Positions 39,531-47,056 of a stretch of DNA of 64,000 nucleotides are shown in pieces. The DNA lies in NCBI RefSeq assembly GCF_003144095.1, contig NZ_NSKH01000003.1, positions 320,086-384,085 of the forward strand, written 5' to 3'. Below the pieces are notes generated by a model. That model was not told the DNA's origin, ran no database searches, and was given only the letters and a program-made list of their open reading frames with translations. The translations under genes were made by a program, and so were the position numbers. Source of the stretch: Streptomyces sp. ICBB 8177. Lineage in GTDB: Bacteria; Actinomycetota; Actinomycetes; Streptomycetales; Streptomycetaceae. Every line of letters begins with the position of its first letter. The first letter of the stretch is position 1.

Positions 39531-39536
39531 GTAACG

Positions 39537-39609
<73 letters not shown>

Positions 39610-41463: not shown

Positions 41464-41488
41464 CAGGTCAACGGCCTTGCCGTGATGG

Positions 41489-41561
<73 letters not shown>

Positions 41562-41640: not shown

Positions 41641-42282
41641 TCAGGCCGGAGCGGTCCCTTCCGCCCGGGCCGCGCGCAGGCACGCCCACAGCAGGACCGC
41701 GGCCCCCGGCAGCCACGGATCGCGCACCCCGGGCGCCACCAGCCAGCGTGACGCGCAGCGCGCCGAGCCGCCCTCACCGTCACCCTCGGCCGTGCCGGAG
41801 GCGGCCGGCGGGTCGGGGACCAGCGGCGGCACGGTCACCGCGTCGCCCGCGCCGTGGCACAGCGGCCGGGGCACCAGCTCGCCCCACTCCTCCCACGACA
41901 GCAGCGACGGCAGCCGGTCGGCGGTGCCGGGCTCGGCGAAGACCAGGACGCGGTTGTGGTGGAGGGCGACGGGACCGCAGCCCGGCCCGGCCGTCCACAG
42001 CCGCTCCAGCATCCGGCGGCCGAACAGCGCGGGCAGGTTGACCACGTCGAACGCCGTGCCGCACGGCAGCACGCTCGGCGCCGAGGGCCGGGCCGACCAC
42101 AGCGCCTTGACGCTGCGGGGGAAGGCGCTGGCGGAGGCGAGCCACTCGGCGCCGTCGACCGTGACGTACTCGGAGTGCAGCGCCGCGTCGGCCTGCCACA
42201 GGTCGAGCCCCGGTGCGCCGGGGCGGCGGGGATCGGTGGGCCGTACGTCACTGTTCCGGATGTCCCAGGTCATGTCGGTCAT
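41641..42282 (-). CDS. Primase-polymerase (prim-pol)-like N-terminal domain protein
   Basis: This 213-residue protein resembles Streptomyces proteins annotated as bifunctional DNA primase/polymerase, from features such as SASAFPRSVKALWSARP, PSVLPCGTAFDVVNLPALFG, VLVFAEPGTADRLPSLLSWE and CHGAGDAVTVPP. The family catalytic triad (DxD and His) is not clear, so it may be a degenerate, non-catalytic member. The ATG at 42282 is preferred over one 24 bp upstream because a TAGATGT -10-like box lies just before it, which would make a leaderless mRNA. It stands beside DNA-processing genes on the same strand but is separated from them by 215 bp. Confidence 0.65.
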   Translation of the reverse strand: MTDMTWDIRNSDVRPTDPRRPGAPGLDLWQADAALHSEYVTVDGAEWLASASAFPRSVKALWSARPSAPSVLPCGTAFDVVNLPALFGRRMLERLWTAGPGCGPVALHHNRVLVFAEPGTADRLPSLLSWEEWGELVPRPLCHGAGDAVTVPPLVPDPPAASGTAEGDGEGGSARCASRWLVAPGVRDPWLPGAAVLLWACLRAARAEGTAPA

Positions 42283-42497
42283 GGCAGATACATCTACCGG
42301 CGGCATGGTTCCGGTTGCCCGGATCGCCGGAAATCGGGACAGCCCGGGGCCTGCGGCGGTACCCTGCCCGCATATGCCACCGGCCCATGATGCCCGTGCA
42401 TTCGCGTGTGCGTCCGCCGGTGCGAAGGCCCGTGCCGCTGCACGTGCATCAGCGAAGCGACAGGCCTGACCCGCCGTGGCGTGAGAGGGCGCGGAGG

Positions 42498-42869
42498 TCA
42501 GTCGACCGCCGGGCGCTGCCGGAGGAGATCGGTGCCGAACTCGATCATGCGCTGCGCGTAGTCCTGCGACCAGTCCGCCCGCCGGGCGATCGACTCCACC
42601 GTCGCGCGGTCGAAGCGCTTGGGGTCGGCGAGCTGCGCGGCCGCCATCGCCTGGAACTCGGTGGCCCGGTCGGCCGCCGCCCGGAACGCGAGCGCCAGTT
42701 CGGTGGAACGCTCCAGCAGCTCACCCGGGTCGTCCATCGACTCCAGGTCGAAGAAGTGCTCCGGATCGTCCGCGGCGGCCTCGGGCTCGAAGAGCAGCGG
42801 CGCGGGCCGCATCCTGGGCCGGCCCGCCGCCGTGTCCGGCGTCTGCTGAGCCGAGTTCGGCTCGGACAT
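42498..42869 (-). CDS. Small conserved hypothetical protein
   Basis: This 123-residue acidic protein has a disordered N-terminal third (SEPNSAQQTPDTAAGRPRMR) and an alpha-helical remainder (DPGELLERSTELALAFRAAA, then ATVESIARRADWSQDYAQRM, IEFGTDLL). The helical part suggests a coiled or helical-bundle adaptor; it lacks membrane segments. It lies 166 bp downstream of the SF1 helicase gene on the same strand and may belong to the same functional group. I do not recognise a named family. Confidence 0.72.
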   Translation of the reverse strand: MSEPNSAQQTPDTAAGRPRMRPAPLLFEPEAAADDPEHFFDLESMDDPGELLERSTELALAFRAAADRATEFQAMAAAQLADPKRFDRATVESIARRADWSQDYAQRMIEFGTDLLRQRPAVD

Positions 42870-43035
42870 CTACCTACCTCCAGGTTGTGGACCGTCATCC
42901 ATTGTCCCGCACCCGCGCAAGCCCCCGAAGGCTCGCGGCCCCGGCGGCCCGCCGACTCATCCCGGCGGACCCGGTGCTCCCCCGGCCGGGCCGGCGCCGC
43001 ACGGGCCGCCTGCCGGGCAGACGGAGGTGTGGGGG

Positions 43036-44388
43036 TCAGGGACGCCAGACGACCCGGTGCTCCGCCAGCCGGGCCAGCACCGCGTGGTTCGCCTCCCAGC
43101 CGTCCGGGAACTTCACCGTCACCCCGAGCCGCACCGGCTCGGTGGAGGGGTGGTCGTCCAGCAGCCGCTCGACGCCCGCCCGGCAGACCACCACGCAGGC
43201 GTGCCGGTGCCGGGAGGCCAGCACGCACAGGCGGCCGGTCTCCAGGTGGAACGCGGTCGCGTCCGGCCGCCCGGACAGCGGGTGCAGCACCACCGTCACG
43301 TCGAACTCCCGCCCCTGCAAGCGGTTCGCCGTGTCCACCGCGACGCCGGTCACGCCGAGACCGGCCAGCGCGGAGCGCACCGCCGCCGCCTGGTCGCGGT
43401 GCGCGGTGCCGACCGCGATCCGGTCGGCGGTCAGCGGCGCCGGTTCTTCGGACCGCTCGCTGACCGTCACCCCGCCGCGCTCCAGCATCCGGCGCACCAC
43501 GAGCGCCACCGCCGCGACCGCCTCCGGGTCGGTGCGCGGGGTGTGCCGGGCGGGCAGCTCCAGCAGCCCCCAGCCGCTGACGGCGGCCTCGTCCAGCACG
43601 CGGTCGGCCGCGCCGCCGTCCGACGCCACGCCGAACGCCATCCGCCGGTCCCCGTGGTCCGTACCGCTGCGGAACGGCGTGTACGGGTAGAACGCGCCGG
43701 AGATCAGCGGCGCCGCCGACGCGGGCAGCCGCCAGGAGACCGGCAGCCGGTGCTGCGGCAGATCTGGGTTGTGCGCGAGCAGCGTGACGACCGCGCTGGC
43801 CGACGGGTCGTAGGACAGCCCCGCCCACTGCTCGGCGCCGACCACGCTGAACGGGTCGAGCTGCCCCGGGTCGCCAACGAACAGCGCCCGTTCGAAGAGC
43901 CCGGCCACCCGCAGCAGCGCGTCCGAGCGCATCTGGTACGCCTCGTCCACGATCGCGTGGCGCCACGGCTCGACGTTCTTGACATAGCCCCACTTGGCCG
44001 CGGTCGCGATCACCACCTGCCGTTCCAGCAGGTCCGCGACCTTCGCCGACTTGAGGACCGACGGGTGCCGGTCCAGCGCCGGGTCGGGCGGCGAGTCCGA
44101 GCCGTGCAAGCGGCCCACCGCCAGCTTCGGGTCGGCCGTCGCGAGCCGGTCGGCGAGGTCGTCCACCTGGGCGTTGGTCTGCGCGACGATCATCAACCGC
44201 TCACCGGACGCGGCCAGTTCGCGGGCCGCGCGCACCACGAGCGTCGACTTGCCCGCGCCGGGAGGGGAGTCCACCACGACGCCGCGCCGGGTGCCGTGCC
44301 GGGCGTCGCGCAGGATCGCCTCGGTGGCCCGGGCCGCGGCGGACGCCGGGTCGTCGCCGGGCACGAGGGCGGTCACGGTCTCGCTCAC
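43036..44388 (-). CDS. SF1 helicase, UPF1/Dna2-like (AAA_11/AAA_12)
   Basis: This 450-residue ATPase is SF1B-like. Motif I is VVVDSPPGAGKSTLVV (residues 37-52) and motif II HAIVDEAYQM. Motif III is ALFVGDPGQLDPF. Later motifs are HRLPVSWRLP (IV), VDTANRLQGREFDVTVVL (V) and LCVLASRHRHACVVV (VI). This is close to the Dna2/UPF1 group of 5'-3' nucleic-acid helicases, with a compact core and little insertion. The GTG at 44388 overlaps the upstream stop by GTGA. It is the third member of an overlapping operon with an unknown protein and a Cas4/RecB-type nuclease, suggesting a complex that unwinds and degrades DNA. Whether it acts in repair, recombination or phage defence is not known. Confidence 0.9.
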   Translation of the reverse strand: MSETVTALVPGDDPASAAARATEAILRDARHGTRRGVVVDSPPGAGKSTLVVRAARELAASGERLMIVAQTNAQVDDLADRLATADPKLAVGRLHGSDSPPDPALDRHPSVLKSAKVADLLERQVVIATAAKWGYVKNVEPWRHAIVDEAYQMRSDALLRVAGLFERALFVGDPGQLDPFSVVGAEQWAGLSYDPSASAVVTLLAHNPDLPQHRLPVSWRLPASAAPLISGAFYPYTPFRSGTDHGDRRMAFGVASDGGAADRVLDEAAVSGWGLLELPARHTPRTDPEAVAAVALVVRRMLERGGVTVSERSEEPAPLTADRIAVGTAHRDQAAAVRSALAGLGVTGVAVDTANRLQGREFDVTVVLHPLSGRPDATAFHLETGRLCVLASRHRHACVVVCRAGVERLLDDHPSTEPVRLGVTVKFPDGWEANHAVLARLAEHRVVWRP

Positions 44389-45941
44389 AGCAGGTCCTCC
44401 CCGGTCACCGGATCGGGCGGCGCGGCCACCGGCGCGGCGGACGGCGGACCGCCGTGCGTCCACGGGGTGGCCTCCGCGTCGGGCAGATCGGGGCCACCGC
44501 GCGCGGTGTGCTCGAACAGCGTCCAGCGCACCTCGTCACCGACCGCGGGAAGCGTGCCCGCGTCCGGCTCCTTGCCGCGCCCCATGCCGTTCAACAGCCG
44601 CACGGTGAGCGTCCGCTGGTCCACCCAGCCGGTGAACTCCGCCTCCTGCACACGCCCGTCCGGCAGCGCGCGGTACAGCCTGCCGCCCTCGTCCAGATGC
44701 GGCAGGTCCTCGGTGGCGAGCGTCACCAGCGGCCGGGGCCTGGGAACCTTCGCCGCCGAGTACGCCATCTCGACCGCGGTCACCTCGCCCGCCAGCGCCT
44801 CACCGGCCAGCCGTCGCCCGGCCATCACCAGCGGGTCGTCCAGCGCCTCGCCCGCGTCCAGCCGAGCCTGCGCGGTCTCGCGTCCGGCGAGCTTCTGCGC
44901 CGCGGCGACCGCGTCGTCCCGCCGGGGCTGCGGCGGCTCCCCGGCGCGCACCCGGTCCCGGTGGCCGGTGAACGACCAGCGGTCCCGCTTCCAGCGCTCC
45001 TCCACGTGACCGCCCGGCGGCAGCCCGCGCAGCAGGTCGACGCCGCGCCACACGTCGTCCCACGCGGGCCGCGCCTGGCTCTCCAGCAGCGCCGTGATCT
45101 CCGCCACGGCGGCGGACGGGTCGGCGCCCCGGGTGCGGGCCGCGTCGTAGCGCGCCATCGCGGGCGCCAGCGCCTTGTTGTCGAAGACCGGGTCGGTCGC
45201 TGGACCGGCCGGCGGGCTGACCAGCAGGCCGCGCTCGTTGCGCACCACCTGCGCGCGCGTGGCCGCCTCCCGTCCCGTCATGCCCGGCGGCGGGTCGATC
45301 CAGCCCAGCAGCGCGCCCAGGTGCTGGTCCTCCAGGCCGCTCTGACCGGTCGCCCAGTGCCGGGTCAGCAGGTCGGTCATCGCCACCAGCAGCGCGCTGC
45401 CCGGCACCCGGGCCCGTTCGCCGAAGTGTGTCAGCCAGCGGCCCAGCAGCGGGACGCGGGAGGGCGCCGGATAGGGTTCGTCGGGGTTCTCCTCGGCGGT
45501 GCGGCGGAAGCGGGTGGCCCGGCCGAGCAGCCGCACGTAGTCGATCCCGGCCGCGTTCGGCACGATCAACTGCGGGGCGTCGGCGCACAGTTCACGCTCG
45601 ACGGCCACCTTCTTGCCGGTCTCGGGATCGGTCTCCTTGCCGGGCTCGAACTCGACGCCGTCCTCGTATCCGGTGACGTACGGCAGGATCTCGTCGGCAA
45701 GCTCGGCCAGGAAGGCCGACCTCAGGTCGCGGTCGCGCGGCTGGGGCACGACGAGCAGCCTGGGCCGGTCGCGGTCGGTGCCGACCAGGGCGCCCAGCGG
45801 TGCCCCGACCTCGCCGGCGGTGGTCAGCGGCACGAAGACCAGCGGCCGGTCGGACAGCCACCGGTGCCGCACGGTCGCCAGCGGGCGGGCCCGCCCGGCG
45901 GCCACGGCCTCGGCCCGCGCCAGCGTCGTCATCAGGGACAT
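44385..45941 (-). CDS. 518-residue unknown protein between nuclease and helicase genes
   Basis: The protein has no recognisable motif or membrane segment but solid actinobacterial codon use. The N-terminal region (about 20-190) is beta/alpha-like (LATVRHRWLSDRPLVFVPLT, then RLLVVPQPRDRDLRSAFLAE). The middle is helical, Ala/Arg-rich with Trp (WDDVWRGVDLLRGLPP, WKRDRWSFTGHRDRV). The C-terminus has a strand-rich segment (ARPLVTLATEDL-like, RTLTVRLLNGMGRGKEP) followed by a Pro/Ala tail. It overlaps both neighbours (ten bases with the nuclease stop, four with the helicase start), so the three proteins are made together and probably form a complex. It may be an architectural subunit analogous to parts of Dna2 or AddB; this is inference. 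Confidence 0.85.
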   Translation of the reverse strand: MSLMTTLARAEAVAAGRARPLATVRHRWLSDRPLVFVPLTTAGEVGAPLGALVGTDRDRPRLLVVPQPRDRDLRSAFLAELADEILPYVTGYEDGVEFEPGKETDPETGKKVAVERELCADAPQLIVPNAAGIDYVRLLGRATRFRRTAEENPDEPYPAPSRVPLLGRWLTHFGERARVPGSALLVAMTDLLTRHWATGQSGLEDQHLGALLGWIDPPPGMTGREAATRAQVVRNERGLLVSPPAGPATDPVFDNKALAPAMARYDAARTRGADPSAAVAEITALLESQARPAWDDVWRGVDLLRGLPPGGHVEERWKRDRWSFTGHRDRVRAGEPPQPRRDDAVAAAQKLAGRETAQARLDAGEALDDPLVMAGRRLAGEALAGEVTAVEMAYSAAKVPRPRPLVTLATEDLPHLDEGGRLYRALPDGRVQEAEFTGWVDQRTLTVRLLNGMGRGKEPDAGTLPAVGDEVRWTLFEHTARGGPDLPDAEATPWTHGGPPSAAPVAAPPDPVTGEDLL

Positions 45942-47056
45942 GACGCCTCCCGACCCAGCGCCTCGGTCCGCAGCGCCGCCGCCCGGCGCAGGGCCACCGC
46001 CGCCGGATCGTCCTCGTGGCCGTCCCCGACCCGGCCGTCCCGGTCGCCGTACGCCGCCGCCAGCACCCGTTCCACCGTGGTCAACGTGCCCAGCTCACCC
46101 CGCACCGAGCGGCCCAGCGCCTCGACCGCGCCCCGCTCCCTCGCCCGGTCCCGGCAGTGGTAGGCGAGTTCGCAACTGGCCAGGCACTCCGGCGCGTACG
46201 TGGCGGGCACCGCCTCGACGGCCTCGGCCAGCTCGCCGGGCGGACGCTCCCGCGTGACGTCGAACGTCGTGCCCTCCGGCAGGGTCGCCGCGATCCGCTC
46301 CACCTTCGTCATCCGGGCCAACTGCCGCCTGGTGACCGCCAGTTGCCTGCGTACGTCGACCAGCTCCGCGGTCGGCGCGTTGGAGAAGTCCTTCGGGCAC
46401 ACCAGCAGCACGTCCGGCCGGGGCGCCGTCGCGTCGAGCCGCTCCAGGGCCAGCACGTAGACCGCGGCCTGCCGGGCCGCCGCGCCGACCTTCACCGGGT
46501 CCGCCGCGCCGTCCAGGATCGGGAAGGACTTGACCTCGATCACCGTCCAGCCACCGTCCGGGCGCACGGCCACCGCGTCGGGCTCCAGGTAGACGGGGGC
46601 GCCCGCCACGTCGAGCACCAGCAGCGGATGGTCGAGCAGTGTCCAGCGCTTGGCCGCCGTCGCCTCCCGCAACGCCAGCCCGGTGCGGGCCGCTCGGCCC
46701 TCGGGGCCCGCCGCTGTCAGGTCCGGCACCTCGGCGGTCTCGCTCTCCGCCGCGCCCAGCAGTCGCAGCAACTCGGCGCAGCCGTCCGCCTTGACGCGGG
46801 CCTCGAACGCGTTGCCCCGGGCGAACGCGAACTGCGACTGGCCGAACCGCTCCGGCGAGCCCAGCGCCCGCGCCACCGCGCCCTTGTCGACCCCGGCCGC
46901 GTCCAGCACCGCGCGCCGCCCGCACCCCGGGTTGGCCGCGAGCGCCGCCAGCGCCCGGGCGTCCAGCGGACGCGGCGGCACCCCGGGCCCGCGCAGCCCG
47001 GCCCACCGGGCGCGCTGGTCCACGGCCGCGGACCGGCTGTCGCTGAAGTCGTTCAC
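45932..47056 (-). CDS. PD-(D/E)xK nuclease of Cas4/RecB type with candidate Fe-S cysteines
   Basis: This 374-residue nuclease shows the catalytic signature YLEPDAVAVRPDGGWTVIEVKSF-like split as LEPDAVAV and WTVIEVKSF (Asp then Glu-x-Lys). A lone N-terminal Cys in NPGCGRR (about residue 45) and a C-terminal set in ECLASCELAYHCRDRA (Cys-x3-Cys-x5-Cys) resemble the four-Cys [4Fe-4S] arrangement of Cas4, AddB and Dna2 (usually CxxCx5C). The GTG at 47056 is chosen; in-frame starts up to 47107 exist, but no clear ribosome site decides. It is first of three overlapping genes ending with an SF1 helicase, so together they look like a split Dna2-type nuclease-helicase. Confidence 0.82.
   Translation of the reverse strand: MNDFSDSRSAAVDQRARWAGLRGPGVPPRPLDARALAALAANPGCGRRAVLDAAGVDKGAVARALGSPERFGQSQFAFARGNAFEARVKADGCAELLRLLGAAESETAEVPDLTAAGPEGRAARTGLALREATAAKRWTLLDHPLLVLDVAGAPVYLEPDAVAVRPDGGWTVIEVKSFPILDGAADPVKVGAAARQAAVYVLALERLDATAPRPDVLLVCPKDFSNAPTAELVDVRRQLAVTRRQLARMTKVERIAATLPEGTTFDVTRERPPGELAEAVEAVPATYAPECLASCELAYHCRDRARERGAVEALGRSVRGELGTLTTVERVLAAAYGDRDGRVGDGHEDDPAAVALRRAAALRTEALGREASCP

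Follow-up and report, generated by a model that had tools for sequence, protein, structure and literature searches.

A probable Dna2-like nuclease-helicase divided among three chains in Streptomyces

Results

Three overlapping genes are kept in a fixed order

The three genes analyzed here, nuc, mid, and hel, lie in this order on the minus strand of a 64,000-nucleotide stretch of DNA from Streptomyces sp. ICBB 8177 (assembly GCF_003144095.1, contig NZ_NSKH01000003.1, positions 320,086 to 384,085), which is referred to below as the window. They appear to encode the separated parts of a Dna2-like nuclease-helicase. Coordinates are collected in Table 1. In the window nuc and mid overlap by 10 bases and mid and hel by 4 bases. 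An alternative GTG start for hel at 44463 would give a protein of 475 residues.

The same order and strand were found in all 166 loci that carry nuc, mid, and hel (151 of them with distinct mid DNA), showing that the gene arrangement is not due to chance. Among the 151 distinct loci the nuc/mid overlap was 10 bases in 92 and 4 bases in 31; 124 had a hel start codon located 4 bases within mid, and 3 had a gap of more than 300 bases. No mid-hel fusion was found among the 166 loci. A preliminary description of this DNA had reported three genes joined by these two overlaps, and the layout holds across the wider set. The ratio of nonsynonymous to synonymous substitution rates for nuc, mid, and hel was 0.09-0.39 in six pairs, indicating purifying selection on each of the genes, including mid. 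The possibility that the trio is one gene of the single-chain TM0106 type (discussed below) split by sequencing errors was rejected, both by the recurrence of the overlaps in most of the 151 distinct loci and by the purifying selection on all three frames.

Table 1. Positions of the genes, protein regions, and neighboring genes in the window, and of the related gene order on plasmids
Feature	Position	Strand	Description	Basis
nuc	45932..47056	-	374 residues, GTG start; PD-(D/E)xK nuclease with predicted Fe-S cysteine quartet	Open reading frame (ORF), residue conservation in 152 sequences
nuc Cys45 codon	46922-46924	-	Predicted [4Fe-4S] ligand	150/152, 2 gaps
nuc active-site stretch, D160 to K176	46529..46579	-	Active-site residues	D160 152/152, E174 149/152, K176 150/152
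nuc C291-x3-C295-x5-C301	46154..46186	-	With Cys45, predicted [4Fe-4S] ligands	152/152 each
mid	44385..45941	-	518 residues, ATG start; DnaQ-like domain, long helices, and UPF1/Dna2-type barrel	ORF, AlphaFold2 model
mid residues 31-250	45192..45851	-	Probable DnaQ/RNase H-like domain, apparently without acidic motif-I residues	VIA-align
mid residues 372-476	44514..44828	-	β-barrel like that of UPF1/Dna2-type helicases	VIA-align
hel	43036..44388	-	450 residues from GTG at 44388; SF1 UPF1/Dna2-like RecA1-RecA2 motor	
Small helical neighbor	42498-42869		123 residues, downstream of the trio	
Prim-pol-like neighbor	41641-42306			Pfam Prim-Pol 22.1 bits, cut-off 22.8
Plasmid gene order	L218:3032-8134, L219:2680-8140, L220:2991-8131, L221:2793-8137		No named system recognized	

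Nuc and Hel have the conserved residues of a nuclease and a motor

Residue conservation was counted over non-identical proteins from complete ORFs of more than 250 residues, mostly from Streptomycetaceae: 152 Nuc, 156 Mid, and 148 Hel sequences (167, 173, and 164 before removal of identical sequences). Nuc has the motif layout E158-P-D160, E174-x-K176, and Q196-x3-Y200, plus the lone Cys45. The Asp/Glu-x-Lys site is present at residue level, and Q196 and Y200 are kept in 151 and 152 sequences, respectively. Nuc is thus best described as a putative iron-sulfur (Fe-S) nuclease of the RecB/Dna2-like kind, with the label taken from conserved residues and not from a family match, and its cysteine quartet is predicted to hold a [4Fe-4S] cluster. 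NCBIfam and PADLOC contained no match for Nuc.

Hel scored above the Pfam cut-offs for AAA_11 (E 3.1e-10) and AAA_12 (E 2.4e-7) and reached only E 0.15 with UvrD_C_2. The motifs GAGK, DEAYQ, GDPGQL, DTANxLQG, and GRLCVLxSRHR, which we take to be Walker A, DEAx, and motifs III, V, and VI of superfamily 1 (SF1), are conserved at 99-100%. Among solved structures the best match was Dna2 (E 5.7e-12), almost tied with IGHMBP2 (8.6e-12) and followed by UPF1. Hel also aligned (P 1.2e-22) with the helicase region of the single-chain TM0106-type proteins. It scored 51.1 bits with NF040671, the helicase of the PLuB system, against a cut-off of 999, and PADLOC 2.0.0 returned only partial matches to helicase-bearing models, the best being MkoA (E 3.7e-8). 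Hel would accordingly be an SF1B motor of the UPF1/Dna2 type, expected to translocate 5'-to-3'. The preliminary description had named a PD-(D/E)xK nuclease with a lone cysteine and a Cys-x3-Cys-x5-Cys set, next to an SF1 helicase of the UPF1/Dna2 type; both assignments are borne out, the first by residues kept in 149-152 of 152 sequences and the second by the two Pfam families, the motifs, and the best match among solved structures.

The Walker A motif starts about 40 residues from the N-terminus of Hel, which therefore has no space for a preceding barrel and stalk. In both Dna2 and IGHMBP2 a barrel and stalk precede the motor (PMC4716839).

Mid is predicted to supply a helicase barrel

The preliminary description had found no recognizable domain in the 518-residue Mid protein and had proposed structure prediction; at the structure level Mid does have recognizable domains. 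An AlphaFold2 model built from 13 sequences had a mean predicted local distance difference test (pLDDT) score of 88.6 and a predicted template modeling score of 0.85. Seven of the eight top VIA-align entries for this model were UPF1-family helicases, aligned within residues 359-480. The barrel matched IGHMBP2 (4b3f, Z 10.2, root mean square deviation 2.3, 85 residues aligned; 4b3g, Z 9.2), Sen1 and Senataxin (Z 7.9-8.4), and Dna2 (5eaw, Z 8.0, root mean square deviation 2.7, 95 residues aligned), and in the model it is preceded by helices 344-378. The matched part of Dna2, residues 460-567, lies between the Dna2 nuclease domain and the motor stretch matched by Hel, which is also where the Dna2 barrel has been located (PMC4716839). 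By sequence, the Mid profile gave no match to solved structures up to E 10.

The third-ranked entry was a B-family polymerase aligned over Mid residues 32-371 (Z 8.4). When the N-terminal 253 residues were folded alone (31 sequences, pLDDT 86.4), all 50 listed VIA-align rows were DNA polymerase entries, with Z values of only 5.7-6.4. The list was headed by the exonuclease domain of PolC, and the remainder were B-family polymerases, mostly closely related to one another. The matches fall mainly on the stretch of these polymerases that contains the 3'-5' exonuclease domain. Counting residues from the VIA-align ranges places Val-Pro-Leu (residues 37-39) where the acidic pair of motif I would be expected. 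Residue 37 is Val, Ile, or Leu and residue 39 is Leu, Tyr, or Val in 155 of the 156 sequences, with one gap, and neither is acidic in any. Neither PF13482 (RNase_H_2) nor any PADLOC 2.0.0 family matched Mid up to E 1, and the NCBIfam search gave no TIGR03491 match. The model is suggestive, without being proof, of a DnaQ-type exonuclease domain that lacks the acidic motif I, and the most fitting view of Mid as a whole is a degenerate DnaQ/RNase H-like domain joined to the helicase barrel that is absent from Hel.

Mid might instead be an active exonuclease with another catalytic set, giving a complex with two nucleases. Three acidic residues in the DnaQ-like fold are indeed near-invariant (E204 in 155, D205 in 153, and E44 in 152 of the 156 sequences), but the expected first acidic pair is missing from every one of these, whereas nine single-chain TM0106-type proteins have an invariant D-x-E. 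We consider an active Mid improbable.

The trio differs from known nuclease-helicases

The Mid barrel resembles the one between the nuclease and helicase of Dna2, and the three genes therefore follow the Dna2 domain order. As in eukaryotic Dna2, a nuclease with a cysteine quartet and PD-(D/E)xK residues is followed by a barrel and stalk and then by an SF1B motor, so that nuc-mid-hel looks like the Dna2 order spread over three chains. The split Dna2-like enzyme put forward in the preliminary description gains support from this, with Mid providing the Dna2-type barrel. Unlike Dna2, the trio has three chains and not one, its barrel chain also bears a probable DnaQ-like domain, and its nuclease cysteines are spaced x3-x5 and not x2-x5 as in Dna2.

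Single-chain TM0106-type proteins (TIGR03491, PF13482) also combine a RecB-like nuclease, an RNase_H_2 domain, and AAA_11/AAA_12 in the order seen in the trio, as judged from a Pfam scan of two proteins. An alignment of 9 of the 13 single-chain regions fetched showed invariant C30, C227, C230, and C236, forming C-x2-C-x5-C, and an invariant D-x-E at the RNase_H_2 motif, which we take to be a defining feature of the TM0106 family. In contrast to the trio, these proteins are single chains of about 1,100-1,200 residues with C-x2-C-x5-C spacing and an intact D-x-E. Up to E 1, TIGR03491 matched none of the three trio proteins, and it had no match in the window's genome. Because one defining feature of each was looked for and found to be absent, we class the trio neither as Dna2 nor as a TM0106 protein.

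In AddAB, AdnAB, and RecBCD the motors are of the UvrD type and are fused to the nuclease, and AdnAB also has an Fe-S cluster. The trio resembles these helicase-nuclease complexes in having a RecB-like nuclease, but its ORFs are separate and its motor, of the UPF1/Dna2 type, is on its own chain. An Fe-S cluster is also present in AddB (PMC4716839). CoCoNuT CnuH-CnuE and other bacterial UPF1-like systems share the UPF1-like motor and an oligonucleotide/oligosaccharide-binding (OB)/stalk domain with the trio. In CoCoNuT the OB/stalk domain is in the motor chain, most types have a separate nuclease partner, the nucleases are HEPN, Vsr, or PLD, and the partners are of the McrBC type (PMC11090510). 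The trio differs in that its barrel is outside the motor chain and its nuclease has PD-(D/E)xK residues.

No PADLOC 2.0.0 model matched Nuc or Mid up to E 1. No system described so far is known to us in which a UPF1/Dna2 motor has its barrel on a separate chain, and in the open-access literature subset we recognized no description of a second, core Dna2-type nuclease-helicase like the trio, which is not proof of absence. The individual modules are already known, and, with that limit, the split arrangement with the barrel in trans is apparently new.

The window's copy belongs to the core genome of its family

Of 37 genomes in the window's family (Streptomycetaceae), 36 carried mid, as did 43 of 61 relatives overall. 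A class sample gave 70 of 394 genomes with mid and a phylum sample 12 of 296, of which one was a marginal match. nuc occurred in the same 70 class genomes and, as a marginal 45-residue match, in one more; together with the 166 ordered loci, this shows that the genes are regularly found together. The Mid of S. parmotrematis (Streptantibioticus) is 95% identical to that of the window. Two members of the family had neither mid nor hel. One genus (f15 g35) provided two genomes that retain both genes at a distance of about 36 and 49 kb from each other; in each, a partial hel-like match lies between them (G259:C1:3131937-3170634 and G514:C4:1331213-1382667).

Synteny was examined in 80 named core loci, the best 80 of 592 confirmed mid matches, which are close Streptomyces-type relatives. 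Some are cut by contig ends, and nuc was found in 78. Three neighbors accompanied the trio in most of them: the gene for the 123-residue protein (76 loci), the prim-pol-like gene (73), and a PAP2 gene (67). The window's copy is thus core and syntenic in its family. None of these three neighbors was found in 22 non-core loci (described below). The preliminary description had noted a small helical and a prim-pol-like protein downstream; they are neighbors, and their absence from the non-core loci led us to reject them as subunits and as part of the conserved unit.

A phylogenetic tree of Hel (39 rows) placed 16 core copies in one clade (99/100). It was built without the Hel of L198, L199, L203, L204, and L215 (locus labels) and of 2 of the 18 chosen core loci, and carries long-branch warnings for L202, L209, L224, and L225. 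Phage records held no match for Mid or Hel, and 13 pattern matches for Mid in IMG/VR yielded no confirmed one. A reading of the trio as solely a mobile defense cassette was rejected, given mid in 36 of 37 family genomes and its synteny in the named loci.

Beyond the neighbors, two tRNA-Lys(CTT) genes (39536-39609 and 41486-41561, minus strand) flank genes for a TetR regulator and an alpha/beta hydrolase in the window. tetR1 occurred in 3 and the hydrolase gene in 1 of the 80 syntenic loci, and the pair may have been inserted as a small segment between the repeated tRNA genes.

Accessory copies adjoin a fourth gene and, in some loci, defense genes

The 22 non-core loci that were opened come from three sources: paralogous copies within the window's family (5), class-sample genomes of other families with mid (15 of 31), and plasmid records (2 of 3). 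They are partly related: L123 goes with L124, and L205, L206, L211, L212, L216, and L217 share neighbors. Some neighboring ORFs were judged only by their starts as given by a simple ORF caller. A gene that we call u281 stood just upstream of nuc in 18 of the 22 and is the fourth gene adjoining most of the non-core trio copies opened. Its product has a conserved SLRRDE core, no Pfam family above cut-off, and no PADLOC match. u281 was absent from the window's genome. It was found in 22 class-sample genomes, beside the trio in 20, and one of the remaining two had no mid match. On the Hel tree the labels are consistent with u281 having been gained once and lost twice. A u281-like gene also occurs on two Streptomyces linear plasmids (L222:8546-12551 and L223:8572-12509), where the stretch shown does not contain the trio and the order is HU protein, u281-like protein, and proteins of about 700 and 200 residues.

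A divergent SbcC-SbcD pair was present in 7 of the 22 loci (L123, L124, L199, L200, L201, L208, and L209), all of which also have u281. Wadjet genes were found in five, each also with SbcCD: JetABCD in L123 and L124, JetA2-JetB2 in L208 and L209, and JetABC in L200, with JetD in an adjoining stretch. L199 and L201 had no Wadjet gene even in wider stretches. In L123, L124, and L208 the Wadjet genes begin about 70-155 bases after hel on the same strand. The distance to the end of the sequence is at most 16 kb for L123, on a linear plasmid record, and at most 20 kb for L200, on a single 8.87-Mb contig. None of the 80 core loci contained u281, SbcCD, or Wadjet proteins. Whether the trio tracks the core genome or phage-defense islands, a question raised in the preliminary description, thus depends on the copy, which is core in the window's family and adjoins Wadjet and SbcCD in some others. 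At L198, pPIWI-RE-type genes (PprPDDEXK and pPIWI_RE_Z) lie on one side and an HmaA-like helicase gene on the other (L198:12738-18974 and L198:3980-7516). L202 has relatives of the L198 pPIWI-RE-type genes, identified by clustering only.

These contexts raise the alternative that the trio is a dedicated defense operon everywhere and that the Streptomycetaceae copy was domesticated and became core. Such an origin would fit the Wadjet genes in 5 of 22 non-core and 0 of 80 core loci, all five with SbcCD, the pPIWI-RE-type genes and HmaA-like helicase beside L198, and the location of two copies close to linear replicon ends, where Wadjet and Lamassu have been reported as enriched in Streptomyces (PMC10482375). 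Against it, the presence of mid in nearly all genomes of the window's family and its synteny there are as expected of a housekeeping gene, the f86 loci have neighbors in common with one another, and neither Nuc nor Mid has a PADLOC model. We regard defense in all copies as unlikely.

The genomic contexts also bear on the substrate. The similarity of the barrel and motor extends beyond Dna2 to IGHMBP2, Sen1, and Senataxin, and the UPF1-like helicases of CoCoNuT are predicted to act on RNA (PMC11090510), so that the complex might process RNA or R-loops, with its motor running on RNA or RNA-DNA hybrids. The partner nuclease, however, has RecB/Dna2-type residues and cysteines, and the known relatives of the SbcCD-like proteins encoded at the seven loci act on DNA ends (PMC10586767). 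An RNA substrate is accordingly very unlikely in our judgment.

Probable Mid-Hel pairs recur on plasmids

Plasmids of Rhodococcus, Mycobacterium, Mycolicibacterium, and Xylanimonas encode relatives of Hel with about 35% identity. Among the most divergent relatives listed, at 23-26%, are proteins annotated as members of the TM0106 family. Four plasmid loci (Table 1) share the order AAA ATPase, VWA-like protein, a protein of about 60 residues, a protein of about 390 residues, and Hel. The ATPase is annotated as MoxR in one and scored below cut-off with Pfam AAA_3/AAA_5 in the one scanned; the VWA-like protein matched DUF2201 in the one scanned. On pRHL2 the order recurs, except that the ATPase gene is replaced by a shorter "hypothetical" gene.

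The 390-residue protein occurs in 44 plasmid records. Its family aligned with Mid in hhalign at P 5.8e-4, and also at 0.002 over 261 columns compared with 0.41 for a reversed control, so that it looks like a distant Mid. A 448-residue protein of Euzebya, whose gene overlaps its hel by 4 bases and comes after a DNA cytosine methyltransferase gene and a 65-residue gene, matched both the 390-residue family (P 4.9e-22) and Mid (P 2e-7, probability 93.6%, 294 columns) and on these profile comparisons appears to bridge the two. On Micrococcaceae plasmids with a Hel relative, no adjoining protein matched Mid convincingly. On two of these (L225 and L226) the Hel relative stands by divergent VWA-like genes and a 368-residue protein with a weak C-terminal match to the 390-residue family.

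No relative of Nuc was found among the proteins tested from the plasmid and Euzebya mid-hel loci. The recurring element would then be Mid plus Hel, with the nuclease as one among several partners. A broader reading, which we hold as tentative and on balance doubtful, is that Actinomycetota have a bipartite SF1B helicase family, in which a motor (Hel) and a DNA-guiding barrel/dead-exonuclease protein (Mid) are separate subunits plugged into varied operons: with an Fe-S nuclease, with MoxR-like and VWA proteins on Rhodococcus and Mycobacterium plasmids, and next to a DNA methyltransferase gene in Euzebya. That same reading would include an anti-plasmid super-system of SbcCD, u281-nuc-mid-hel, and JetABCD, in which Wadjet cuts circles, SbcCD and the complex degrade the ends, and an end-capped linear carrier is spared.

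Discussion

We propose, with a probability of about 60%, that Nuc, Mid, and Hel are the chains of one ATP-driven nuclease-helicase of the Dna2 kind that processes DNA ends, serving as a housekeeping enzyme in the window's family and probably, in some accessory copies, in the digestion of foreign DNA. Sequence comparison and structure prediction show the gene order, the conserved active-site and cysteine residues, the barrel fold, the purifying selection, and the partner genes. Complex formation, the Fe-S cluster, polarity, activity, and biological role are what we infer from the comparisons above.

In Dna2, single-stranded DNA is threaded through a tunnel formed by nuclease, barrel, and motor (PMC4716839). 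By analogy, Nuc, Mid, and Hel would build a similar tunnel from three chains. Hel would be the motor that pulls the strand, and the Mid barrel would dock where the Dna2/IGHMBP2 barrel sits, completing the motor. The probably inactive DnaQ-like domain of Mid may be a scaffold or DNA guide that, with the barrel, holds the strand and binds the nuclease. Nuc would receive single strands from the motor and cut them, which would give an activity that unwinds and cuts DNA from its ends.

Several results weigh against this proposal. Nuc reached only 16.5 bits (E 0.0083) with Pfam PDDEXK_1, below the cut-off of 22, its profile retrieved only two engineered proteins and no credible relative by sequence among solved structures, and its profile match to the nine single-chain TM0106-type proteins was weak (P 0.0029, probability 10.6%). 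Ferredoxin reductase and F1-ATPase barrels also reached Z 7-8 on the Mid barrel. Foldseek returned nothing at E <= 0.001 for the whole Mid model, with ATPase barrels heading its list, or for the N-terminal half, where a Z of about 6 may reflect a common arrangement only. hhalign detected no profile-level similarity between Mid and the nine TM0106-type proteins (P 0.29), and descent of Mid from such a single chain lacks support at that level. Finally, 13 of the 22 non-core loci, the f86 loci included, had no SbcCD, Wadjet, or pPIWI-RE genes, and defense is therefore not general.

The core copy of such a Dna2-like complex would most likely act in genome maintenance, processing ends beside the essential AdnAB. 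DNA-end processing in Streptomyces has been described as atypical, and deletion of the potential helicase-nuclease genes adnAB is reported not to be viable (PMC5124664). The accessory copies with u281, SbcCD, and Wadjet would most likely digest foreign DNA, such as plasmid DNA linearized by Wadjet, with SbcCD opening the ends and the complex degrading the DNA. Wadjet cleaves circular and not linear DNA (PMC10586767), so that, hypothetically, a linear, protein-capped replicon could carry both Wadjet and an end-degrading enzyme unharmed.

If the proposal is correct, Streptomyces would have a second, core nuclease-helicase of the Dna2 type, which is directly testable, and the family would provide an example of a UPF1/Dna2 motor that receives its barrel from another chain.

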